A stretch of DNA of 36,276 bases from positions 1 through 36,276 of the forward strand of contig QKDN01000074.1 in the NCBI GenBank assembly GCA_003252535.1. Direction: 5' to 3'. Shown here one piece after another: positions 179 to 18,966 of this stretch (position 1 is its first letter; the number at the start of each line of letters is the position of its first letter). A program made the translations under genes and the position numbers. The notes beneath the pieces were generated by a model, which saw only the letters and a list, made by a program, of their open reading frames with translations, was not told where the DNA came from and searched no databases. The stretch comes from Campylobacterota bacterium (lineage in GTDB: Bacteria; Campylobacterota; Campylobacteria; Campylobacterales; Sulfurovaceae).

Positions 179-853
179 ATGAAACTAAAAGCTCTACTGC
201 CAATGAAAGGTAACTCCGAGAGAGTTCCCAACAAGAACATGAGGGATTTTGACGGAGCGCCCTTGTACCATGCCATCACGAAGTCACTCCTGGCAAGTAA
301 ATATATCGAATGCGTTGTGATCAACACGGACAGCGAAACGATCGCCAAAGATGCAAAAGAGCATTTCGGTGACAAGGTCATCATCATCGACAGGCCTGTC
401 GAGATACAGGGGGACTTCGTCTCGATGAACGATATCATCGACTATGACCTCTCCAAGCTCGACGGTGACCACTTCCTCCAGACACATAGCACCAATCCGC
501 TGCTCAGAGGTGAAACTATCGACAAAGCGGTTGAAAAATACTTTGAGGGACTGGAGAGCTACGACAGTATCTTCGGTGTCACCAGGGTGCAGACGAGATT
601 TTATGACAAAAACGCCAACCCGATCAATCACAACCCCAAAGAGCTGCTCAGAACACAGGATCTCGAACCGATGTATGAAGAGAACTCGAACTTCTATATC
701 TTCTCGAAAGAGTCGTTCAAAAATGCCGACAACAAGAGAATAGGCCTCAAGCCCCAGATATTCGAGGTCAACAAACTCGAAGCTGTAGATATCGACGAGC
801 CCGAGGATTTCAAACTTGCCGAACTGCTCCATATCCACAAAGATAACCTATAG
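179..853 (+). CDS. CMP-sugar synthetase-like cytidylyltransferase (NeuA/KdsB superfamily)
   Basis: A 224-residue nucleotidyltransferase that probably transfers CMP from CTP to an acidic 2-keto sugar in the cytoplasm. The N-terminus carries the family's nucleotide-binding signature (LLPMKGNSERVPNKNM, residues 6-21) in place of the usual PARGGSKR-PxKN, and residues around 86-90 (THSTNPLL) match the conserved TSPLR-type segment. Length fits a minimal NeuA/KdsB domain. The ATG at 179 has AAAGGA just upstream. It is first of a run of seven closely packed or overlapping genes including a pyruvate aldolase, so the substrate is more likely a special ulosonic acid than Kdo. Kdo synthesis is represented separately by kdsA at 18169. 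The exact substrate cannot be read from sequence. Confidence 0.82.
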   Translation: MKLKALLPMKGNSERVPNKNMRDFDGAPLYHAITKSLLASKYIECVVINTDSETIAKDAKEHFGDKVIIIDRPVEIQGDFVSMNDIIDYDLSKLDGDHFLQTHSTNPLLRGETIDKAVEKYFEGLESYDSIFGVTRVQTRFYDKNANPINHNPKELLRTQDLEPMYEENSNFYIFSKESFKNADNKRIGLKPQIFEVNKLEAVDIDEPEDFKLAELLHIHKDNL

Positions 854-862
854 GAAATACCG

Positions 863-1630
863 ATGAGCTTGAAACAAAAACTGAAAAATAACGAACTGAC
901 GATCGGTTCATGGATCATGATGGGCAACCCCATGAGCGTCGAGGTCATGGCACTCGCAGGGTTCGAATGGCTCGTAATCGATATCGAACACACCTCGATC
1001 GATCTGCAGAATGCTGAGAACCTCATCAGAACCATCCAGGCGAACGGGATCAAAGCCCTTGTAAGGGTAAGCAAGAACGAAGAGGTCGTCATCAAAAGGA
1101 TACTCGATATGGGAGCCGATGGTATCATCGTACCTATGGTGTGCTCCAGAGAGGATGCCATGCAAGCAGTAAACTATGCGAAATACCCACCGATAGGCAA
1201 AAGAGGAGTTGGACTCTACCGTGCTTCAAAATACGGAACAGGGTTCGAAGAGTACAAAAAATGGGTCAATGAAGAGCTTGTGATCATCGCCCAGATAGAA
1301 CATATCGATGCCGTCAACGATATCGATGCAATACTCGAGGTCGAAGGGATAGACGGAACGATCATAGGACCGTACGATCTCTCAGGCTCCATGGGATACC
1401 CCGGCGAGTTCGACAGGGATGATGTCAAGAAAGCGGTTCAGAGAGTTCTGGACAGATGCGAAGCCAAGAATATCCCTTCAGGATTCCATGTCGTCGATAC
1501 AGACCCTGCAAAGCTCCAGGTAAAGATCGACCAGGGATGTACCTTCCTCGCTTACGGTATCGACTACTTCTTTATGAGAGATGCTGCAATAAGCGGAATG
1601 AACAAAATCAAAGAGGTGAACAATAAATGA
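863..1630 (+). CDS. HpcH/HpaI-family class II pyruvate aldolase
   Basis: A 255-residue TIM-barrel aldolase of the HpcH/HpaI family. These metal-dependent enzymes reversibly join pyruvate to an aldehyde, giving a 2-keto-3-deoxy or 4-hydroxy-2-keto acid. The key residues are intact: base His43 in D-I-E-H (40-43), Arg68 for pyruvate, and metal ligands Glu146 (QIE) and Asp172 (GPYDLSGSMG, 169-178). The KYPPIGKRGVG segment (107-117) is also typical. The gene starts 9 bp after the cytidylyltransferase with AGGAAA as ribosome site and ends in an ATGA overlap with the next gene. Catabolic members cleave aromatic or sugar-acid intermediates. Here, beside a cytidylyltransferase and glycosyltransferases, a biosynthetic direction making a 3-deoxy-ulosonic acid is the more economical inference. 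Confidence 0.85.
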   Translation: MSLKQKLKNNELTIGSWIMMGNPMSVEVMALAGFEWLVIDIEHTSIDLQNAENLIRTIQANGIKALVRVSKNEEVVIKRILDMGADGIIVPMVCSREDAMQAVNYAKYPPIGKRGVGLYRASKYGTGFEEYKKWVNEELVIIAQIEHIDAVNDIDAILEVEGIDGTIIGPYDLSGSMGYPGEFDRDDVKKAVQRVLDRCEAKNIPSGFHVVDTDPAKLQVKIDQGCTFLAYGIDYFFMRDAAISGMNKIKEVNNK

Positions 1631-2583
1631 AAATCTTCGTATCAACCCATCCTTTCAGCTCTACATCAGAACTCCCGATGAGCCTGATCGAACAGAACGG
1701 CTTTGATCTCTCGGTCAATGAACACGGACGGAAGATCACTTCCGATGAACTCGCCGAGGATATCAAGGATGCCGAGATACTGATAGCCGGTACCGAAAAG
1801 ATCACCGAAAAGGTCTTCGAGAACGCTCCCAATCTCAAACTGATCTCCCGTGTGGGTATCGGTCTCGACGGCGTAGATTTCGACCTGTGCAAAAAGTACG
1901 GCGTGAGAGTTGCCTATACTCCCGATGCGCCGACCATGGCTGTAGCAGAACTGTGTGTCGCGATGATCCTCGATCTTGCACGAAAGGTGACCTATACCAA
2001 TAACCAGCTCAAGGAGAAGTTCGCATGGAACAGGTTCATGGGCACCCTGCTCTACGGCAAAACAGTCGGCATCCTTGGAATGGGCAGGATCGGCAAGAGC
2101 CTTGTCCATCTCCTTTCGTCTTTCAATGTCAAGTTCAAGGTCTATGATATCAAACCCGACCTTGCCTTCGGCAGACTCTACAATGTCGAGTTCGTCTCCA
2201 AAAATGAGCTCCTCCAGAGCGCCGATATAGTCTCCGTCAATGTACCGCTCAAAGAGGACACGACCGACTATATCACGACCAAAGAGCTCGGGATGATGCA
2301 AAAACACGCCATCCTCGTCAATACCGCACGCGGCGGGATCGTCAATGAGCATGACCTCTATGAAGCTCTCAAGAATAATATCATCGCCGCTGCCGGAGTA
2401 GATGTATTCGAGGAGGAACCGTATAAAGGAGAACTCACGACACTGGAGAATTGTCTGCTTACCTGCCACATGGGTGCGAGCACGATAGACAGCAGAACCG
2501 ATATGGAGGTACAGGCGCTCGAAGAGGCGATCCGCTACAAAAACGGTGAAGAGCTCAAGAACGAGGTCTTTGAAAATGCGTAA
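1627..2583 (+). CDS. D-isomer-specific 2-hydroxyacid dehydrogenase (phosphoglycerate dehydrogenase-like)
   Basis: A 318-residue NAD(P)-dependent dehydrogenase that interconverts a 2-hydroxy acid and a 2-keto acid. The split substrate domain surrounds a Rossmann fold with GMGRIG at 151-156. The catalytic set is present: Arg235 (NTARGG), Glu264 (VDVFEEEP) and His281 in CHMGAST. It lacks the C-terminal ACT regulatory domain of full-length SerA, as do many pathway-specific members. The start overlaps the stop of the aldolase gene (ATGA), so the two are translationally coupled. In this cluster it may supply or reduce the aldehyde or keto-acid partner of the aldolase. It could also act on the aldolase product. 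The substrate is not determined. Confidence 0.85.
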   Translation: MKIFVSTHPFSSTSELPMSLIEQNGFDLSVNEHGRKITSDELAEDIKDAEILIAGTEKITEKVFENAPNLKLISRVGIGLDGVDFDLCKKYGVRVAYTPDAPTMAVAELCVAMILDLARKVTYTNNQLKEKFAWNRFMGTLLYGKTVGILGMGRIGKSLVHLLSSFNVKFKVYDIKPDLAFGRLYNVEFVSKNELLQSADIVSVNVPLKEDTTDYITTKELGMMQKHAILVNTARGGIVNEHDLYEALKNNIIAAAGVDVFEEEPYKGELTTLENCLLTCHMGASTIDSRTDMEVQALEEAIRYKNGEELKNEVFENA

Positions 2584-3457
2584 AAAGGTTGTAGTATTTG
2601 GTGGCTGCGGATTTATCGGGAGCTATGTCGTAGAGGAACTGCTCGATAAAGGGTACGATGTCATTGCTGCCGATCTCAATCCTTCGAAATATGTTGACGA
2701 CAAGTACTTCGTAAAATGCGATATCCTCGATACAAATGCCGTGGATAATCTGGTGCACAGTGCACAGATTGTTTACAACTTTGCAGGCTTTGCCAACCTC
2801 GATGATGCCATTGCCAATCCTATCAAAGCGATAGAGCTCAATGTGATCGGCAATATGAATATCATGGAAGCCTGCAAACGACACCATGTCAAAAGGTTCG
2901 TCTATGCCAGCAGCGCCTACGCCATGAGTGAAAAGGGGTCATTCTACGGTATCAGCAAGCTCACTTCCGAGAAGCTCATCGAAGAGTATTACAAGAAATT
3001 CGGTCTTGAATTCACCATCGTCCGCTACGGTTCGGTCTATGGCGAAAGGGATTACTACAACAACTATATCTACAATCTCCTCAAAAAGGCAGTTTCGACA
3101 AACGAGATACACCATAGCGGTGACGGCGAAGAGATCAGGGAATATGTCCATGCTGCCGATGTTGCCAAACTGGCAGTGCAGATCATCGAATCGGATGAAT
3201 TCATCAATGAACATATCATCCTGACCGGTGTCGAGCGGATGAAAAGAAAAGAGCTCTTCGAGATGGTCAACGAGATACTTGGAGGAGAGTTACAGGTCAC
3301 GCTCAATGACAACGGCTACCACAACCACTACAAGACCACCCCTTACTCCTTCCACCCCACAAGGAGCAAAAAGCTTGTGGCAAATCCCTATATAGACATG
3401 GGACAGGGACTCCTGGATTGCCTCAAGGATATCGAGGAGAACTATGGCTCGGAATAA
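2576..3457 (+). CDS. NAD-dependent epimerase/dehydratase (extended SDR)
   Basis: A 293-residue extended short-chain dehydrogenase, the group that epimerises or dehydrates nucleotide sugars. The N-terminus has the NAD-binding GGCGFIG (residues 9-15) and Asp33 at the end of beta-2. The active site is visible as YASSAYA (110-116) and Y124-G-I-S-K128. The start at 2576 is chosen because it gives the usual few residues before the Rossmann strand and has GAGG at 2564-2567; a longer frame from 2546 would add ten non-homologous residues. It overlaps the preceding gene by 8 bp and the next by 14 bp. It probably modifies the sugar made or consumed by the cluster; UDP- or dTDP-sugars are also possible. 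Confidence 0.83.
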   Translation: MRKKVVVFGGCGFIGSYVVEELLDKGYDVIAADLNPSKYVDDKYFVKCDILDTNAVDNLVHSAQIVYNFAGFANLDDAIANPIKAIELNVIGNMNIMEACKRHHVKRFVYASSAYAMSEKGSFYGISKLTSEKLIEEYYKKFGLEFTIVRYGSVYGERDYYNNYIYNLLKKAVSTNEIHHSGDGEEIREYVHAADVAKLAVQIIESDEFINEHIILTGVERMKRKELFEMVNEILGGELQVTLNDNGYHNHYKTTPYSFHPTRSKKLVANPYIDMGQGLLDCLKDIEENYGSE

Positions 3458-4121
3458 GCTCGTTTATCTTTCTTATCTTCTGGACGGTAACACGCCGACC
3501 TACGGTAACAGAAACAGATTTGTCCGTGAAGAGCGGTCATCGATAGCTAAGGGAGATGTAGCAAACGACTCCAGCATAGAGACAACGGTTCATATAGGCA
3601 CCCATATTGATATGCCCTACCATTTCTTTGCCGACGGACAGACTGTCGAATCGTACGATGCGTCCTTCTTCGACTTTTCCGATGTCCTGTTCATAGAGAT
3701 AGAACCCCGGTCACTGATCATCAGGGACGAACTTCTCGAAAAGCTCGAAGCGATCGAAGACAAAGCAAAATACGACATGCTCATTGTCAAGACTGGTATA
3801 TGCGACCGTCGGGACGAAGCTGTGTTCTGGGAGTCCAACTATGGTTTCGATCCCCTCGTAGCGCCGTACCTGCGGGAAAAATTTCATAATATCAGAGTCC
3901 TGGGATTCGACTCCGTCTCGGTCTCGAGCTTTGCCCATCGACTGATTGGCAGAGAAGCGCACAAAGCGTTCCTCGACCCCGCAGCACCGATACTCCTGCT
4001 CGAAGATATGGATCTGAGAGCGATCAACGATACTAGGAAGCTCCATCGCGTCACCGTCGCGCCGATGAGAATAGCCCAATGCGACGGATTACCCTGTACA
4101 GTCATAGGAGAGATAGAATAA
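3444..4121 (+). CDS. Cyclase-family metal hydrolase (kynurenine formamidase-like)
   Basis: A 225-residue member of the cyclase family, which includes bacterial kynurenine formamidase and isatin hydrolase: Mn- or Zn-dependent enzymes that open amides, lactams or similar bonds. The metal motif is complete: His50-I-G-T-His54-I-Asp56-M-P-Y-His60. The C-terminal half has the usual GFDSVSVSS and an R-x-A-H-KAFLD segment ahead of LLLEDMDL, where family members have further active-site residues. It overlaps the upstream epimerase by 14 bp and its TAA stop overlaps the ATG of the next gene. No tryptophan-degradation genes are nearby, so a role in polysaccharide precursor chemistry, such as opening a lactone or removing an acyl group, is inferred only from context. 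Confidence 0.8.
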   Translation: MARNKLVYLSYLLDGNTPTYGNRNRFVREERSSIAKGDVANDSSIETTVHIGTHIDMPYHFFADGQTVESYDASFFDFSDVLFIEIEPRSLIIRDELLEKLEAIEDKAKYDMLIVKTGICDRRDEAVFWESNYGFDPLVAPYLREKFHNIRVLGFDSVSVSSFAHRLIGREAHKAFLDPAAPILLLEDMDLRAINDTRKLHRVTVAPMRIAQCDGLPCTVIGEIE

Positions 4122-4612
4122 TGGCAATGTTCGGCAATATCAACACCCTCAAAAAACAGGTCAAAGACCCCAGGTTCGACATCGCATTCGCGTACCTTGA
4201 AAAAGTGCTCTACCCCACAAGCGAGGAGCACGCACGGCTCAAAGGGTATGAACTTGACAGTTTTGTCAGGATCGACCTGGATGAGAATAACTTTGCACTG
4301 GAACAGACATACTTTTCAAAAGGGAGAGAAAAATGCTTTTTCGAATCCCACAGGCAAAATATCGATGTACAGTTCATACTCGAAGGTGAAGAGATCATCG
4401 AAGTCGGCGATATAAGTGACCTCAATGTCACCTTTGCCTACGATGAACATATGGATCTCATCAAGTATGGCGACAGTACATCCACTTCAGCCATAAGGCT
4501 CAGAGCGGGGGATATTGCTATTTTCTTCCCGGAAGATGCCCACATGCCCTGCATACAAACAGATGCTCCATCACATGTTATCAAAACGGTCGTAAAGGTC
4601 CGCATTGATTAG
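4121..4612 (+). CDS. YhcH/YjgK/YiaL family cupin (sialic-acid anomerase-like)
   Basis: A 163-residue YhcH/EbgC-type protein (DUF386). These are small double-stranded beta-helix proteins; the E. coli member YhcH (NanQ) lies in the sialic-acid operon and has been reported to interconvert sialic-acid anomers. Typical residues are present: H77-R-Q-N-I-D82 and Gln84 before LEGEE (87-91), and FFPEDAHMP (135-143) with His141. The start at 4121 is taken because its ATG overlaps the previous stop (TAATG) and GGAG lies at 4107-4110; an earlier in-frame ATG at 4079 lies inside the upstream gene. A sugar-anomer role fits beside a NeuA-like activating enzyme. The substrate is inferred. Confidence 0.82.
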   Translation: MAMFGNINTLKKQVKDPRFDIAFAYLEKVLYPTSEEHARLKGYELDSFVRIDLDENNFALEQTYFSKGREKCFFESHRQNIDVQFILEGEEIIEVGDISDLNVTFAYDEHMDLIKYGDSTSTSAIRLRAGDIAIFFPEDAHMPCIQTDAPSHVIKTVVKVRID

Positions 4613-5219
4613 GAATATCATATTTGATTTCGACGGGGTGATACTCGACTCGGTACCGACAAAGACTGAAGCATTCAAAAAACTCTTCGAGGAATTCCCG
4701 CAGGAGAAGATAGAACAGCTGGTTGTCTACCATGAAAAAAATGGCGGGATCTCCAGGTATATCAAGATCAAATATTTTTTCGAAGAGATACTCCGTACGG
4801 ACATAACCAAGGAGCAGATCGATGAATACGCTGTCAGATACTCCGAACTGACAAAAGAGGAACTGACCAACCCCAGGTACCTCATCCAAGACAGCATCGA
4901 CTTCATCAGGAAAAATCAGGGAAAATACCGTATGCATGTAGCATCGGGTGCCGATGAAGGAGATCTCAGGTACATCTGCGAGCAGTTGCACCTGAACGAA
5001 TATTTTCTCTCAATCAACGGTTCACCGAATGTCAAGACGGAGATCGTCGCAAAGATATTGGCAGACAACAGCTACGACAAAAAAGAAACGATCCTCATCG
5101 GAGACTCTGTCAACGATTACGAGGCCGCCAGTAAAAATGAAATCATGTTCTATGGCTACAATAATGTAAATCTGCAGAACGATCACCTGTACATCACAAC
5201 ATTTACAGACTTTTTATGA
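4605..5219 (+). CDS. HAD-superfamily phosphatase
   Basis: A 204-residue haloacid dehalogenase-type hydrolase with a helical cap. All four motifs are intact: nucleophile Asp8 and acid/base Asp10 in FDFDGV (7-12), Ser114 in VASG, Lys144, and the metal-binding GDSVND at 166-171. It resembles phosphoglycolate phosphatase-type enzymes. The start is a TTG at 4605, overlapping the upstream stop by 8 bp, with AAAGG at 4594-4598; no ATG start is available before the DFDG motif. In Kdo and sialic-acid pathways a HAD enzyme removes phosphate from the ulosonate before CMP activation. A similar step is a reasonable inference here, although HAD sequence does not reveal the substrate. Confidence 0.82.
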   Translation: MIRNIIFDFDGVILDSVPTKTEAFKKLFEEFPQEKIEQLVVYHEKNGGISRYIKIKYFFEEILRTDITKEQIDEYAVRYSELTKEELTNPRYLIQDSIDFIRKNQGKYRMHVASGADEGDLRYICEQLHLNEYFLSINGSPNVKTEIVAKILADNSYDKKETILIGDSVNDYEAASKNEIMFYGYNNVNLQNDHLYITTFTDFL

Positions 5220-6067
5220 GATTTTCACTGATACTCGCTACCGTGCACAGGAGAGAGGAGGTAGAAAACTTTCTGCTTTCCCTGCTCGGACAGACTTACA
5301 GGGATTTCGAGGTTCTGATCATTGATCAGAACAAAGATGACAGGATCGGGAGTATCCTTCCCCACTTTCACGATCTTGCCATCACCCATCTGCACTCCCC
5401 GATCGGCCTCTCAGTAGCCAGAAATGCTGGATTGGAGCACGCATCAGGAGAGATCATATGCTTTCCAGATGATGACTGTACCTATCCGCCAGAACTGCTG
5501 GAGAACATCCATCGTTTTTTCACAGAGAATGATTATGATATCCTGATGGGAAAAACTATAGACAAACAAACGGGGGCAATAGTAGCTGGTCGGAATGAAT
5601 CGGGAGAACGTGAACTGAGCCATTTTTTCACACTGGGGAGTTCGACCACACTTTTTATTAAAAATATCGGTGACACAAGATTTGATGAACGGTTCGGGAT
5701 CGGCGGTATATTCGGTTCTGAGGAGGAACACGACCTTGTGCTCCGACTGCTCAAAAGCGGGTACAAAGGCTTCTACAATCCTAACATAGACTATGTGTAC
5801 CATCCCCCTTCTGATCTCGATTATACCGATCTGGAAAGGATCAAAGAGCGCTCTGTCGGATTGGGTGCATTTATCGCAAAACATTGGATGAGCAAAGAAG
5901 GTTTTTTGTATTTTTTTAAATATAATATCATCAGACCTCTATCGGGAAGTCTGATCCATCTGGCGAGATTCGATCTTGTCAGATCCAAATTCTATTTTTT
6001 CAAATGGCTCGGTATATGGAAGGGCTTTTTTAAATATTTCGGGACAAAGAATGAAACTCGTATTTGA
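5216..6067 (+). CDS. Family 2 glycosyltransferase
   Basis: A 283-residue GT-A fold glycosyltransferase, expected to use a nucleotide sugar at the inner membrane face during repeat-unit assembly. Visible family features are the N-terminal strand FSLILATVHR, QTYRDFEVLIIDQ (26-38), the SVARNAGLEHASGEII region and the metal-binding Asp85-Asp86-Asp87. The later GSEEEHDLVLRLLKSGYK region contains acidic residues in the position of the catalytic base. The start overlaps the HAD stop (ATGA), directly coupling it to the putative ulosonic-acid genes, and the end overlaps the next glycosyltransferase by 17 bp. The donor and acceptor sugars are unknown. GT2 enzymes do not normally use CMP-ulosonates. Confidence 0.85.
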   Translation: MRFSLILATVHRREEVENFLLSLLGQTYRDFEVLIIDQNKDDRIGSILPHFHDLAITHLHSPIGLSVARNAGLEHASGEIICFPDDDCTYPPELLENIHRFFTENDYDILMGKTIDKQTGAIVAGRNESGERELSHFFTLGSSTTLFIKNIGDTRFDERFGIGGIFGSEEEHDLVLRLLKSGYKGFYNPNIDYVYHPPSDLDYTDLERIKERSVGLGAFIAKHWMSKEGFLYFFKYNIIRPLSGSLIHLARFDLVRSKFYFFKWLGIWKGFFKYFGTKNETRI

Positions 6068-7073
6068 CGCTCGTATCCTGACGCATCAGACCTATACCGG
6101 TGTAGAGAACTATGCCCGGAGCATACTGGATCATATCGGGAACAAGATCGATATAAGAGTCGCAAAACCAACATCGTCCAACAAATACCTCGCCCACCTC
6201 TGGACACATTTCATCCTCCCGTTCATCAAGGGCGACATCCTCTTCTGTCCTGCAAATATAGCACCGCTCTTCGTGCCCTGGAGCAAAAAGCTCGTCGTAA
6301 CCCTCCACGATGTTGCATTTATAACCTATCCGGAAAGTTTTTCACGGTTTTTTCGTACCTACTACAAACTCATCATCCCTTTTGTGATCAAAAGAGCAGA
6401 CAGGATCATTACCGTTTCATACTATTCCAAAAGTGAGATCGAAAAATACTACCCAGCTGCCAAAGGAAAAATCGAGGTTGTTCACCTTGGCAAGAACAGG
6501 CTCTTCAGGCATAAAAACGATATAGGAAAACAGAATATCATCCTCTATGTGGGCAGTATGAACGAAAGGAAGAACTTTACAGGCGTTATCAAGGCATTTG
6601 AACTGCTCAATAGCACAGATCACAGACTCGTGATGGTCGGCCGATTCAATCCCCATTTCGCTATCGACGAGGAGAGCCGTGAGATACTCGATAGGGCACG
6701 GCAAAATCCCTCAATAGAGTTCCGAAGTGATGTCAGCGACGAAGAGCTGGTGAGGATATACAACAGTGCCAAGCTCTTTGTCCTCCCATCCTTCTATGAA
6801 GGGTTTGGTCTGCCATTGCTTGAGGCATTCGTCTGCGGTACGCCTGTAGTATGCTCCAGCGCTGCTTCACTGCCTGAAGTAGGAGGTGATGCGGCACTCT
6901 ATTGTGACCCATACGATATAGAAGACATCAAAGAGAAGATCAAATCGCTCCTCGATGACAGCGACCTGCGCAGACAGATGATCCAAAGAGGATTCAGCAG
7001 AGCAGATGAATTTGACTGGGAAAAATCGGCAGCGGAACATATCAGGATATTCCAAGAGGCGGTCGGACATTGA
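6051..7073 (+). CDS. Family 4 glycosyltransferase
   Basis: A 340-residue GT-B glycosyltransferase of family 4. It begins MKLVFDARILTHQTYTGVENY, the usual first strand and glycine-containing loop, and carries YVGSMNERKNF at the start of the second domain. The retaining-GT4 signature E250-GFGLPLL-E258 (E-x7-E) is present, followed by CGTPVV. The ATG at 6051 overlaps the GT2 gene by 17 bp; an upstream in-frame extension would intrude further into that gene. Its TGA stop overlaps the TTG start of the next glycosyltransferase. It should add one sugar to a lipid-linked repeat unit. The donor is not predictable with confidence. Confidence 0.87.
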   Translation: MKLVFDARILTHQTYTGVENYARSILDHIGNKIDIRVAKPTSSNKYLAHLWTHFILPFIKGDILFCPANIAPLFVPWSKKLVVTLHDVAFITYPESFSRFFRTYYKLIIPFVIKRADRIITVSYYSKSEIEKYYPAAKGKIEVVHLGKNRLFRHKNDIGKQNIILYVGSMNERKNFTGVIKAFELLNSTDHRLVMVGRFNPHFAIDEESREILDRARQNPSIEFRSDVSDEELVRIYNSAKLFVLPSFYEGFGLPLLEAFVCGTPVVCSSAASLPEVGGDAALYCDPYDIEDIKEKIKSLLDDSDLRRQMIQRGFSRADEFDWEKSAAEHIRIFQEAVGH

Positions 7074-8171: not shown

Positions 8172-8177
8172 TATAAT
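8172..8177 (+). promoter_or_regulatory. Possible internal promoter -10 box for the sugar transferase
   Basis: A perfect TATAAT lies at 8172-8177, in the 14-bp gap between the glycosyltransferase and the sugar transferase, overlapping the first possible ATG (8176). No good -35 box is seen. Transcription would begin near 8184-8186, right at the second in-frame ATG (8185), so it could yield a leaderless message. It may let the phosphoglycosyl transferase be expressed separately from the long operon. Confidence 0.4.
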
Positions 8178-9525
8178 GCACGCTATGAAACAGGTGCATT
8201 TTAACTACGCTACATACTTTCTGGCTCTCATTTTATTGCTTGTCGATCTGGGTGCACTGACAGTATCCTTTGAAAGCGCGATTTATATCAGGATGCACTT
8301 TTTTAGAGACCATCTTCCCCCTTTCGATCATTATAATCTCCAAAAATACTACTGGATCATCGCATTGACTCTTTTTATGTTCATCATTGAAAATATCTAT
8401 ACGATGCGGTATGACTTCTGGGCCGATACCAAACGTATATACAAAGGGTTTTTTTACTCTGCCTTCGCAATATTCACACTATTGACACTTGGCAAAGTCG
8501 GGGTAGAGTACTCAAGGAGCTTCATTATCATTTTTTTTGCCGTTGCCATATTTTTGGTACCTATCTTCAAACGGTATGCCAAAAGATATCTGTTCGGGTT
8601 CAATGTATTCAAAAAAAATGTCAAGATCGTAGCCGGCAGCCGCCGTGCGGACATTATCAAGGCAGAGATCGAAAAGAACTGGTACCTGGGCCTGTGCCAC
8701 AGCCAAGAGAGCTATGAAATGGTCATCATCGTCTCCAGGAGCTTTGAAACAGCGAAGCTCCAGCAGATCATCAAAGAACACTCAAGGCATACCAAAGATA
8801 TTTATGTCATCCCCTACATGGACCATCTGGACTTCTCTCATGCAAGTATCGTGGATTACTCGAATATCAGGCTCTCTGCTATCCACATAGAGAACAGGCT
8901 TTTGAGCCCCAAGAACACCTTTATCAAATATCTTGCGGAAAAACTGGTCGTTCTGCTGATCTCCCCTCTCGTATTTTTGCTCCATATCGTCATCACCGTA
9001 CTCATCAAGCTCGACTCAAAAGGCTCTGTCATATTCAAGCAAAAAAGACTTGGCAAAGATGCCTCGACCTTCAGTTGCTACAAATACCGAACCATGTACG
9101 AGAACGGCCAGGAGATACTCGATGACTATCTTGTCAGACACCCGGAAGAGATTACCTATTATGAAGAGTATCATAAATATCAGGATGATCCCCGTATCAC
9201 CAGGATCGGTAGCTTTCTTCGTAAAACCTCGCTCGATGAGTTCCCGCAGTTTTATAACATCCTGCGCGGAGATATGAATCTCATCGGTCCGCGCCCCTAT
9301 ATGCTCAGTGAAAAAGAGCAGATCGGACCGTTTCACGAAGATGTTATCCTCAGGGTCAAACCCGGTATCACTGGACTCTGGCAGGTAAGCGGACGTAACG
9401 AGCTCACTTTTGATCAGAGGGTGAAGCTTGACAACTGGTATATCCAGAACTGGTCGCTTTGGATCGACTTTATGATCTTTGTCAAAACGATCAAAGTGGT
9501 TTTCAACAAAGTAGGAGCAAAATAA
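8176..9525 (+). CDS. WbaP-type undecaprenyl-phosphate sugar phosphotransferase
   Basis: A 449-residue polyprenyl-phosphate hexose-1-phosphate transferase that starts repeat units by moving a sugar phosphate to undecaprenyl phosphate. The N-terminal half has about four membrane segments (roughly residues 10-30, 55-75, 90-107, 112-130). Then come a linker domain and a further hydrophobic segment near 258-275, leading into the catalytic domain. Catalytic-domain signatures are K303-YRTM, the D-D-P-R-ITRIG stretch, the DEFPQ segment, GDMNLIGPRP and GITGLWQVSGR. Length matches the full-length WbaP/WcaJ class. Start at ATG 8176 with AAGAG at 8160-8164; the ATG at 8185 is an alternative. It follows the glycosyltransferases by 14 bp. 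Confidence 0.9.
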   Translation: MHAMKQVHFNYATYFLALILLLVDLGALTVSFESAIYIRMHFFRDHLPPFDHYNLQKYYWIIALTLFMFIIENIYTMRYDFWADTKRIYKGFFYSAFAIFTLLTLGKVGVEYSRSFIIIFFAVAIFLVPIFKRYAKRYLFGFNVFKKNVKIVAGSRRADIIKAEIEKNWYLGLCHSQESYEMVIIVSRSFETAKLQQIIKEHSRHTKDIYVIPYMDHLDFSHASIVDYSNIRLSAIHIENRLLSPKNTFIKYLAEKLVVLLISPLVFLLHIVITVLIKLDSKGSVIFKQKRLGKDASTFSCYKYRTMYENGQEILDDYLVRHPEEITYYEEYHKYQDDPRITRIGSFLRKTSLDEFPQFYNILRGDMNLIGPRPYMLSEKEQIGPFHEDVILRVKPGITGLWQVSGRNELTFDQRVKLDNWYIQNWSLWIDFMIFVKTIKVVFNKVGAK

Positions 9526-11046: not shown

Positions 11047-12354
11047 TTGAGCCGATACGAAGATATTTTTGAATTTACAAAGACCAGCGACGAGTGTATC
11101 AAATGCGGGAAGTGTATCCCTGTCTGCACAATCCACCAGGTCAATCCCGACGAGGTGACCTCGCCGCGCGGGTTCATCGAGCTCCTCGGCGCCTACCAGA
11201 GGGGTCACCTGGAGCTTGACAAGACCGCCAAGGATATCTTCGAGAGCTGCTTCCTCTGTACCAACTGCGTCACTACCTGCCCCAACTCCCTCCCGACCGA
11301 TATGGTGATCGAGGAGGTGCGCGCCGATATCGCGGAGAAGTTCGGTATCGCATGGTTCAAGAAGGCGTTCTTCCTCCTCCTGCGCCACCGATGGCTGATG
11401 GATATCGCGATGAAGCTCGGCTATACCGTCCGTACCTGTGGCTTCAGCGAGGATACGAATCGTGTGGGGATGATACCGAGATTCCCTATGCCGATCATCA
11501 AGAGCGGCAGACTCCTCCCCTCGCTCGGCAAGACAAGCTTCCTCAACAAATACCCCGAGCTCATCGAACACAGCTTCAAGCCCAGGGAAAAACAGAGACG
11601 GGTCGCGATCTTCATCGGGTGTCTGGCGAACTACAACTATACCGAGATCGGTGACGCCCTCATTGAGACCCTCGCAGAGCTCGGCATCGACGCTTTCATC
11701 CCCAAAAAGCAGATGTGCTGCGCCGCACCCGCCTACTTCACGGGTGATTTCGATACGGTGGAGAAGCTGAGCAAGAAGAATATCGAGTACTTCGAGACCT
11801 TTATCGACGATGTCGAGGCGATCATCATCCCCGAAGCGACCTGCTCGGCGATGATCAAGCACGACTGGGAGGTATTCTTCGGCAACCACGAGATGCAGGA
11901 GTGGGCATACCGTGCCAGCCTCATCAACAAGAAGATATACATGGCAACCGAGTGGCTCGAAGAGAACACCGACCTCAAAGAGCGACTCGCTGCCAAAGGG
12001 AAGACCCTCGACTTCGACATCACCTACCACGACGCCTGCCACGCCAAGAAGGTCCAGGGCATCCACAAACAGCCCCGCGCCCTTCTCTCACAGAACTACA
12101 ATATCGTCGAGATGAGCGACCCCGATCGATGCTGCGGATTCGGCGGCGTGACGATGCAGACCGAGAAGTACCACTTTGCCAAGGCTGCGGGCGAACCGAA
12201 AGCCGCCATGATCCGCGACACCAGAGCCAAGGTGGTCAGCGCAGAGTGCAGCGCCTGCCGTATGCAGCTGAGCAACGCCCTCTACCAGGCGGATGTCGAT
12301 GCGGTGTTCAAGAATCCTATCGAGTTGGTGGCTGAGGCGTTGAAGGAGAAGTGA
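11047..12354 (+). CDS. GlcF/LutA/HdrD-like iron-sulfur electron-transfer protein
   Basis: A 435-residue protein with two N-terminal 4Fe-4S clusters and two C-terminal cysteine-rich CCG domains, as in the GlcF subunit of glycolate oxidase, LutA and heterodisulfide reductase HdrD. Cluster cysteines are C17-C20-C23-C27 and C68-C71-C74-C78, the last before Pro. CCG-domain features are MCCAAP (Cys224-225), YHDACHAKK, RCCGFGG (Cys362-363) and SAECSAC. It presumably passes electrons between a flavin oxidase and the quinone pool at the membrane. No GlcD-type flavin subunit lies next to it, so the partner must be elsewhere. The TTG start at 11047 follows AGAGGA at 11035-11040; no ATG is available before the first cluster. 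Confidence 0.83.
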   Translation: MSRYEDIFEFTKTSDECIKCGKCIPVCTIHQVNPDEVTSPRGFIELLGAYQRGHLELDKTAKDIFESCFLCTNCVTTCPNSLPTDMVIEEVRADIAEKFGIAWFKKAFFLLLRHRWLMDIAMKLGYTVRTCGFSEDTNRVGMIPRFPMPIIKSGRLLPSLGKTSFLNKYPELIEHSFKPREKQRRVAIFIGCLANYNYTEIGDALIETLAELGIDAFIPKKQMCCAAPAYFTGDFDTVEKLSKKNIEYFETFIDDVEAIIIPEATCSAMIKHDWEVFFGNHEMQEWAYRASLINKKIYMATEWLEENTDLKERLAAKGKTLDFDITYHDACHAKKVQGIHKQPRALLSQNYNIVEMSDPDRCCGFGGVTMQTEKYHFAKAAGEPKAAMIRDTRAKVVSAECSACRMQLSNALYQADVDAVFKNPIELVAEALKEK

Positions 12355-18168: not shown

Positions 18169-18966
18169 CTATTCCACGATCATTCTGATCGCATCGATCT
18201 GTTCGATGAGCCTGTGGAGCGAGTCCAGCTGTATCATATTGGGGCCGTCACTCAGCGCAACGGATGGGTCGAAATGGGTCTCGAAGAAGAACCCGTCCAC
18301 TCCCGCTCCCGCAGCAGCACGAGCGAGATAGGGGACGAAATGGCTGTCCCCGCCGCTGCTCGCGCCACCTGTTGCGGGCATCTGCACCGAATGGGTCGCA
18401 TCGAAGATCACAGGGGCGAACTCCCTCATCATCGGCAGCCCCCTCATATCGACGACGAGATTGCCGTAGCCGAAGCTCGAACCGCGCTCGGTCAGCCAAA
18501 CGCCGTATTTCTTGGCGTTCTCATGACTCACTTCGTGGCATCCCCGTGTCGCAAGCACCTTGCCCACAGAATGCTTCATCGCCTGAGGTGCGAGGAACTG
18601 CCCCTTCTTGATATTGACCACCGCAGGGGTGTTGGCCGCGGCGACGAGGAGGTCTGTCTGGCGTGAGAGGAAGGCCGGTATCTGGAGCACATCGGCAACC
18701 TCGGAAGCGAGAGATGCCTGCCCAGGTTCGTGGATATCGGTCAATATCCTGCACCCGAACGCCTCCTTGACCTCCTGGAGTATCTTCAGACCCTCTTCAA
18801 GACCCGGCCCCCTGAAGCTCTCGATGCTCGTACGGTTTGCCTTGTCGAAGCTCGCCTTGAAGTAGAACTCCTTGGTACAATCCTCATGGTAGCGCATCAG
18901 CTCCTCGGCGATCCGGAAGGTCGTATCGCGGCTCTCAATGACGCACGGTCCTGCAATGAGTATCAT
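18169..18966 (-). CDS. kdsA: 3-deoxy-8-phosphooctulonate synthase (Kdo-8-phosphate synthase)
   Basis: A 265-residue TIM-barrel enzyme that joins phosphoenolpyruvate and arabinose-5-phosphate to make Kdo-8-phosphate for LPS inner core. It begins [12 protein letters not shown]; Cys8 together with His192 ([10 protein letters not shown]), Glu229 (FFFETH) and Asp240 (SDGPNM) corresponds to the metal-ligand set of the metal-dependent class known from Aquifex (C11, H185, E222, D233). KANRTS and FRGPG bind substrate. AAGGA precedes the ATG at 18966. It leads the minus-strand unit kdsA-ribH-nusB-mqnC. Its presence shows that ordinary Kdo is made by its own route, separate from the aldolase cluster at 179-5219. 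Confidence 0.96.

Follow-up and report, generated by a model that had tools for sequence, protein, structure and literature searches.

Contig QKDN01000074.1 of a Campylobacterota bacterium (family Sulfurovaceae; genome of 2.92 Mb, 99.95% complete) makes up the window analyzed here, one whole contig of 36,276 nt, and carries at positions 179 to 5219 of the plus strand a cassette of seven intact open reading frames (ORFs). They encode a cytidylyltransferase (CMT), a pyruvate aldolase (ALD), a 2-hydroxyacid dehydrogenase (HDH), an extended short-chain dehydrogenase (SDR), a metal-dependent hydrolase (CYC), a YhcH-type protein and a HAD-family phosphatase (HAD) (Table 1). The assignment as an aldolase-bearing, NeuB-free cassette for a cytidine monophosphate (CMP)-ulosonic acid is well supported, since the counts obtained with CMT as bait, with control loci and with the aldolase as bait agree. 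This gene set, widely shared among bacteria, probably makes an activated acidic surface sugar without the usual synthase, an aldolase and sugar-oxidizing enzymes taking its place. CMT and ALD are separated by 9 bases, and every ORF after ALD overlaps its predecessor. The SDR start is taken at 2576 and the YhcH start at 4121, both giving frames shorter than the longest listed ORFs; the window starts at the contig end, and genes 5' of the cassette lie outside the data.

Table 1. Cassette genes and further features of the window
Feature	Position	Strand	Family or basis
CMT, NeuA/PseF-like cytidylyltransferase, presumed CMP-ulosonate synthetase	179..853	+	PF02348
ALD, HpcH/HpaI class II pyruvate aldolase	863..1630	+	PF03328
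HDH, D-2-hydroxyacid dehydrogenase, PGDH/glyoxylate-reductase-like	1627..2583	+	PF02826/PF00389
SDR, extended short-chain dehydrogenase, presumed role of sugar-phosphate 1-dehydrogenase	2576..3457	+	PF01370
CYC, metal-dependent hydrolase, presumed lactonase	3444..4121	+	PF04199
YHC, YhcH/DUF386 family, presumed ulosonate anomerase	4121..4612	+	PF04074
HAD-family phosphatase	4605..5219	+	PF13419
GT2 glycosyltransferase, cluster c19	5216..6067	+	PF00535; gene maps
GT4 glycosyltransferase	6054..7073 (longest listed ORF from 5976)	+	PF00534
Glycosyltransferase-like ORF, cluster order as in L032 and L034	7070..8161	+	gene maps, tblastn
Bacterial sugar transferase, presumed initiating transferase	8176..9525	+	PF02397
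kdsA, Kdo-8-phosphate synthase, outside the cassette	18169..18966	-	TIGR01362, 369 bits (cutoff, 314)

CMT matches PF02348 at 96.7 bits (cutoff, 22.6), and its residues R15, K19, N20 and D204-I205-D206 are invariant in 17 of 17 sequences; the N-terminal R..KN and the C-terminal DID are taken here to be the motifs of CMP-ulosonate cytidylyltransferases. The closest solved chains are CMP-N-acetylneuraminic acid (Neu5Ac) synthetases. The protein stays below the PseF equivalog (90 bits; cutoff, 205.7) and the kdsB equivalog (24 bits; cutoff, 155.2), has one match in its own genome at an E value of ≤0.001 and finds none at ≤1e-5 in the phages searched. ALD matches PF03328 at 126.6 bits (cutoff, 25), with 2-dehydro-3-deoxygalactarate aldolase (1dxe) as its nearest solved relative. 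Six residues presumed to be catalytic by analogy with HpaI (E42, H43, R68, Q144, E146 and D172) are invariant in all 19 sequences of one comparison, and each is kept in 54 or 55 of the 55 loci. It falls under the equivalog cutoffs for HpaI (203 against 368.8 bits), GarL (193 against 406.75 bits) and RhmA (170 against 441 bits). An identity as a phosphoenolpyruvate (PEP) mutase or phosphonate enzyme is ruled out, PF03328 being the sole family matched.

HDH scores 229 bits against the phosphoglycerate dehydrogenase (PGDH) equivalog, below the cutoff of 454, and keeps residues R235, E264 and H281 in 67 of 68 sequences; H50, H54 and D56 of CYC are invariant in 26 of 26. The YhcH protein belongs to the wider family TIGR00022 (80.4 bits; cutoff, 45.5) and scores 60.5 bits against the acetylneuraminate anomerase equivalog, whose cutoff is 160. 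None of the seven proteins passes a curated equivalog cutoff and none matches a PEP synthase family, and no NeuB (PF03102) is found in the source genome at an E value of ≤0.001. An ordinary route to 3-deoxy-D-manno-octulosonic acid (Kdo), sialic, pseudaminic or legionaminic acid is rejected on these grounds: no cassette synthase, no genomic NeuB and equivalog scores far below cutoff. A sequence-only reading of the stretch had described seven coupled genes of these families leading into glycosyltransferases, an HpcH/HpaI aldolase with its full set of catalytic residues, and no PEP-dependent synthase in the cluster, with kdsA elsewhere in the window. This description is borne out throughout, as each family is matched by a Pfam profile, the ORFs overlap or nearly touch, the six aldolase residues are conserved, the GT2 gene overlaps HAD by 4 bases with the GT4 and sugar transferase genes further 3', and kdsA lies 13 kb from the cassette.

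Conservation of the gene set

Within the order, CMT is found at an E value of ≤1e-100 in 5 of 398 genomes, the source genome included; two more carry a CMT-like match at ∼1e-31 that represents a different group. ALD, HDH, SDR and HAD follow CMT in the four other genomes, of which G400 has no CYC, G070 no YhcH and G058 a YhcH match of 45 residues only. For a wider comparison, 73 loci are pooled from several searches, so that a count such as 55 of 73 should not be read as a frequency in the population. They comprise 53 of the 59 loci from one scan of genome contigs with the CMT alignment (CMT 47 to 85% identical to that of the window), the window itself, L028, five plasmid loci and 13 loci from four further searches. 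Six scan loci are left out, L083, L084, L086 and L087 at 28 to 31% identity and L085 and L088 with matches of 56 and 48 residues, and the duplicates L111 (of L078) and L095 (of L048) are removed. Near-copies are retained (for example, L040 to L042, L048 with L051, and L074 with L075 from one assembly), and contig ends cut several loci (for example, L033, L045, L065, L066, L072, L074 to L076, L079, L146 and L147). Profiles serve to score neighbors up to 7 kb from CMT, at thresholds of 40 to 150 bits for cassette loci and equal or lower ones for controls; the lactonase profiles are built from cassette members.

HDH occurs in 68 of the 73 loci, ALD in 55, HAD in 50 and NeuB in 2. Twenty control loci around paralogous cytidylyltransferases of this order contain NeuB in 15 cases and HDH, ALD or a lactonase family in none, which shows that the association of CMT with HDH and ALD is not due to chance (Fisher P values of 5e-16 for HDH and 3e-10 for ALD, relatedness being ignored in these tests). 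ALD without HDH is seen in four loci, three of them cut by a contig end, the fourth being L054. ALD, HAD and the extended SDR occur together: the extended SDR is present in 49 of 55 ALD loci compared to none of the 18 ALD-less loci, the classical SDR in 1 of 55 compared to 9 of 18, and HAD is never found without ALD, as expected if the ALD version alone is phosphorylated. YhcH is likewise confined to ALD loci (26 of 55, compared to 0 of 18; P = 1e-4, uncorrected for relatedness). The NeuB of L038 is rejected as a cassette member, because it is encoded on the other strand, 2.4 kb past the cassette.

At least seven named phyla have ALD loci (Bacteroidota, Campylobacterota, Thermodesulfobacteriota, Deferribacterota, Pseudomonadota, Spirochaetota and Bdellovibrionota), most records being metagenome bins whose individual placements may be wrong. 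Pairwise identities over 46 loci correlate with those of CMT for ALD (r = 0.66), SDR (r = 0.69), HDH (r = 0.63) and HAD (r = 0.48), with 0 of 999 permutations as high in each case, and ALD identities correlate with SDR identities at an r of 0.77. Conservation of the seven-gene order, suggested as a check by the sequence-only reading, is found in part: the genes are kept as a unit, with ALD, HDH, SDR and HAD after CMT in the order, yet CYC or YhcH is missing from some loci and the gene maps show an arrangement that varies between groups at large. MptE-like proteins (PF01973), which we take to be the Maf transferase family, are encoded within 7 kb of CMT in 22 of the 73 loci (13 of 55 with ALD, 9 of 18 others). 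According to an excerpt of PMC11339370, flagellin receives nonulosonic acids from Maf enzymes.

Exchanged partners and aldolase-free loci

A cassette-type aldolase (417 to 435 bits) is present in 16 of the 398 genomes of the order. Its gene lies beside CMT in 5 of these and directly beside a KdsB-like cytidylyltransferase in 10, with neither in the stretch fetched from G133. Genomes G201, G230 and G371 have weaker aldolases (180 to 206 bits; E values of 1e-53 to 1e-61) and are placed outside the 16; their fetched stretches contain no match to CMT, HDH or SDR, and no SDR is found genome-wide at ≤1e-60. The KdsB-like proteins are 72 to 91% identical to one another, and the best solved relatives of the one copy searched are CMP-Kdo synthetases. 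HDH, SDR and CYC accompany 6 of the 10 KdsB-like loci, 5 of them also with HAD; contig ends cut 2. The co-occurrence of aldolase and cytidylyltransferase genes in related genomes, on which the sequence-only reading had staked its proposal, is thus found as adjacency in 15 of 16 genomes, though with a KdsB-like partner in 10. The cassette SDR is detected at ≤1e-60 in 11 of 12 genomes searched, with a broken frame in G096 and no match in G233 (82% complete), and in 15 of 16 when the four known loci are added. This indicates that the aldolase and the SDR belong together and that the activating enzyme is exchangeable. The KdsB-like version forms a second cassette in the order, with aldolase, HDH, SDR, CYC and HAD and with extra genes in between (L144:8050-16545, L149:8091-15827, L151:8030-15063 and L153:8018-15160). 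Among the extra genes of L144, L145 and L153 are a classical SDR and a gene that resembles radical SAM genes by a Cys motif spotted by eye. In G096, the cassette SDR (L145:2975-3851, minus strand) is divided between two frames and its aligned part contains three stops, so that it is either a pseudogene or the result of a sequencing error.

Lactonase-type genes are exchanged as well. ALD loci contain CYC in 25 cases, a 6-phosphogluconolactonase (Pgl) in 18 and neither in 12; ALD-less loci contain an SMP-30 gene in 4, a UlaG-like gene in 3, CYC in 1 and none of these in 10. Overall, 51 of the 73 loci have one of the four families, the CYC of the window being a presumed lactonase. CYC and Pgl never share a locus, and both follow the SDR in most gene maps. 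Seventeen of the 18 Pgl-bearing loci are from named Bacteroidota and one is from a search of Bacteroidota; the two scanned Pgl proteins pass TIGR01198 at 160 and 174 bits (cutoff, 124.45). On the best CMT tree, the lactonase family requires 7 changes.

HDH without ALD is seen in 17 of the 73 loci. Plasmids of Thalassovita, Gemmobacter and Sulfitobacter show the order glycosyltransferase-CMT-HDH, with no aldolase or HAD in the fetched 18.6 kb. In L105 and L109, a UlaG-like domain of the metallo-beta-lactamase fold is fused to a GT2 domain adjoining CMT (L105:3248-4912 and L109:7525-9192), followed by CMT, HDH and a classical SDR; the UlaG-like gene of L123 is assigned by its likeness (82% identity) to that of L109, a scanned relative. 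L118 and L119 have CMT-HDH-classical SDR with an SMP-30 gene nearby, assigned in L119 by likeness to a scanned relative (71%). L066 reads CMT-GT2-CYC-HDH-classical SDR, its 216-residue gene being CYC and not HAD. Three scanned classical SDRs of such loci best resemble D-xylose 1-dehydrogenase (280 and 292 bits; cutoff, 400) and aldose dehydrogenase (155 bits; cutoff, 341), all below cutoff. Among 12 searched genomes of this type, 6 have no ALD homologue at ≤1e-20, the completeness of these genomes being unstated, and the other 6 have homologues of ≤191 bits, compared to 303 and 278 bits in two aldolase-type genomes. These loci and genomes rule out that the CMT family as a whole requires the aldolase. 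Aldolase-free CMTs are 47 to 64% identical to the nearest aldolase-type CMT (L066, 64%; L090, 50%). On the CMT tree of 71 rows, built without outgroups (whose branches measure 6 to 10 changes per column) and without L077 and L108, ALD presence needs 2 changes, and a single aldolase-free clade is not rejected (approximately unbiased test, p-AU of 0.119).

Proposed route and alternatives

The data show which genes are present, that their active sites and their grouping as a unit are conserved, that NeuB is lacking, that lactonase-type and cytidylyltransferase genes are swapped and that aldolase-free versions exist; all substrates, the direction of every step and, most of all, what the aldolase does and what is made are inferences. 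Slightly preferred, at a probability of roughly 40%, is an oxidative route from an aldose to a CMP-2-ulosonic acid without a PEP synthase, with ALD acting on a 2-ketoaldonate; condensation with pyruvate is nearly as likely. The SDR would oxidize C1 of a hexose or hexose-like 6-phosphate to a lactone, which CYC, or 6-phosphogluconolactonase in many Bacteroidota, would open to a phospho-aldonate. HDH would then oxidize the C2 hydroxyl, and the resulting 2-keto-aldonate phosphate would itself be an ulosonic acid. This keto acid, its ring opened with the help of YhcH, would be the substrate of ALD, most simply by enolization or by a retro-aldol/aldol reaction that inverts C3/C4. Removal of the phosphate by HAD would allow the pyranose to close, and CMT would form the CMP-sugar used by a glycosyltransferase. 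The sequence of aldose, lactone, aldonate and 2-ketoaldonate is suggested by the swapping of lactonases and by the 1-dehydrogenase-like SDRs that are combined with HDH. The strongest hint of a sugar lactone as intermediate is that unrelated lactonase families replace one another repeatedly.

Parts of this route have counterparts elsewhere. XylB and XylC of the Caulobacter type reportedly oxidize xylose to xylonate, and Zwf and Pgl oxidize glucose 6-phosphate. Both systems place a lactonase after an aldose 1-dehydrogenase, and related families occur in the aldolase-free loci and the Bacteroidota cassettes; in contrast to them, the cassette version lies in glycan loci, together with a 2-hydroxyacid dehydrogenase and a cytidylyltransferase. 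With the NeuB, PseI and LegI pathways to CMP-Neu5Ac, CMP-pseudaminic acid and CMP-legionaminic acid and the KdsA/KdsC/KdsB pathway to CMP-Kdo, the cassette shares a PF02348 or KdsB-like cytidylyltransferase, a presumed CMP-ulosonate, a HAD phosphatase and MptE-like neighbors. It differs from them in having a dehydrogenase, a lactonase-type hydrolase, an SDR and an aldolase in place of a PEP synthase. A hex-2-ulosonic acid has a capsular parallel in E. coli K3, which is said to contain a 4-deoxy-2-hexulosonic acid. In E. coli sialate catabolism, YhcH opens the ring form of sialic acid for the aldolase NanA, as an excerpt of PMC8141875 describes, and both systems pair YhcH with a pyruvate aldolase; that of the cassette is of the HpcH/HpaI type and linked to CMT and glycosyltransferases. 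With YhcH confined to ALD loci, this role in E. coli makes it very probable that ALD handles a ring-forming keto acid close to the species that is activated.

Several observations weigh against the oxidative route. The AlphaFold model of the SDR (predicted local distance difference test score of 90) is closest to GalE-type uridine diphosphate (UDP)-sugar epimerases (Z score of 34.0; root mean square deviation of 1.9 over 280 residues). GalE-type folds top both match lists, no uronate or glucose-6-phosphate dehydrogenase appears among the best 50 structural matches of either list, and the structure is rejected as proof of a 1-dehydrogenase. The lactonase activity of PF04199 is presumed, and a lactonase within 7 kb is missing from 10 of the 18 aldolase-free loci and from 12 of the 55 with the aldolase. 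Inversion at C3/C4 by ALD is a conjecture of ours for which we know of no precedent, chosen because all seven genes then receive a role. Median identities to the window are 62% for CMT, 56% for ALD and 58% for SDR, compared to 31% for both HDH and HAD. HDHs of aldolase-free loci are 31 to 37% identical to the nearest aldolase-type HDH and may therefore do something else, and a family CMT at 52% identity sits with NeuB in L077. ALD keeps an adjacent cytidylyltransferase even where this is KdsB-like (10 of 16 genomes), and the fetched stretches of G016 and G025 contain ALD and the KdsB-like gene without HDH, SDR, CYC or HAD, the SDR lying on another contig. ALD therefore looks like the step next to activation, and KdsB-type enzymes activate Kdo, a 3-deoxy acid.

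These last points suit the pathway that the sequence-only reading had put forward, in which the aldolase would join pyruvate to an aldehyde and the resulting 3-deoxy-2-ulosonic acid would be dephosphorylated and CMP-activated. Spelled out for all seven genes, the aldehyde may be phosphorylated, HAD would dephosphorylate, YhcH would anomerize and the cytidylyltransferase would activate, with HDH, SDR and the lactonase preparing the acceptor or tailoring the product. Condensation of this kind agrees with the intact catalytic residues of the aldolase, its adjacency to a cytidylyltransferase in 15 of the 16 genomes of the order (KdsB type in 10), HAD seen only with ALD, the restriction of YhcH to ALD loci and its service to an aldolase in E. 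coli (excerpt of PMC8141875), the tracking of ALD identities with those of CMT and SDR, and the second CMT group that adjoins a 4-hydroxy-2-oxovalerate-aldolase-like protein in 2 of 2 loci. It leaves HDH, SDR and the lactonase without a natural role and an acceptor that cannot be named. It is also at odds with the 17 HDH loci, and with the 6 genomes among 12 searched, in which CMT relatives occur and the aldolase does not. The earlier proposal is thus partly supported: the NeuB-free CMP-ulosonic acid cassette stands, its glycan loci coming from seven or more named phyla, and the aldolase as the sole source of the keto acid is not supported, given the aldolase-free loci and genomes. Two different products would be an unlikely explanation, with CMP-2-ketoaldonates made by the aldolase-free loci and an extended oxidized sugar, such as a branched or dicarboxylic ulosonic acid, by the aldolase loci. 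The CMT tree keeps these kinds of loci mostly apart and their HDHs are distant, as given above, yet CMT identity across kinds reaches 64% (L066) and such a product is not known. A sugar-acid catabolic set (GarL/YhcH-like) placed in a glycan locus by accident is highly improbable, although such families occur in aldonate or sialate catabolism, for YhcH as described in the excerpt of PMC8141875. With the aldolase as bait, a cytidylyltransferase adjoins it in 15 of 16 genomes of the order, the cassette continues into genes for glycosyltransferases and a sugar transferase, and no dehydratase family is matched among the seven proteins except for the broad NAD-dependent epimerase/dehydratase fold of the SDR.

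If the oxidative route is correct, a more general scheme can be drawn, which is doubtful at present: CMP-2-ulosonic acids would arise without a core C-C synthase by C1 oxidation, any of four lactonase families and C2 oxidation, in free-sugar and phosphorylated forms and with an aldolase reused to set stereochemistry. The free-sugar form would belong to Pseudomonadota, some Bacteroidota and Nitrospirota. The phosphorylated form would extend over at least seven phyla, with a pyruvate-type aldolase setting stereochemistry and a NeuA-like or KdsB-like activating enzyme. Non-deoxy hex-2-ulosonic acids would then join the known CMP-sugars. To our knowledge, all known CMP-ulosonic acid pathways build the sugar with a PEP-dependent synthase, and genome mining keyed on this enzyme would miss the cassette. 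The open-licence full-text literature gives no description of such a cassette or of CMP-hexulosonate biosynthesis among the matches listed; the cassette predicts an acidic sugar without a description found, with an activating enzyme exchanged between two families.

Neighboring genes and side observations

Candidate transfer genes near the cassette of the window are of the GT2 and GT4 types only, and GT2 genes of cluster c19 also lie 3' of the cassette in L032, L034, L037 and L039. In L031 (10171-12067), Macro-domain and FRG-domain genes are inserted between YhcH and HAD in a cassette without CYC. The cassette of L050 (2691-7605) is partly inverted, with aldolase matches on both strands, which reflects a true inversion or a single-cell assembly fault.

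Another cytidylyltransferase group, ∼30% identical to the CMT of the window, adjoins an HMGL-like protein in L023:1654-3412 and L029:8929-10588 (minus strand). The best models for this protein are 4-hydroxy-2-oxovalerate aldolases (67 and 73 bits; cutoff, 229), making a further aldolase-cytidylyltransferase pair possible. CMT relatives in L077:332-6111 and L108:8587-15556 stand alongside a 3-dehydroquinate-synthase-like protein (in L108, TIGR04425 at 424 bits; cutoff, 400). L077 also holds radical SAM and NeuB genes and two consecutive CMTs, and L108 a GmhA-like protein below cutoff. A gene of cluster c30 is shared beside or within the cassettes of L053:8683-9519, L055:9117-9893, L057:11028-11801 and L066:2-730; from its sequence we take it to be an FkbM-type methyltransferase, which would hint at a methylated product. 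In the window, a PF02754 Fe-S/CCG-domain protein at 11047-12354, after a phosphoglucomutase/phosphomannomutase-type gene, closes the plus-strand glycan run.

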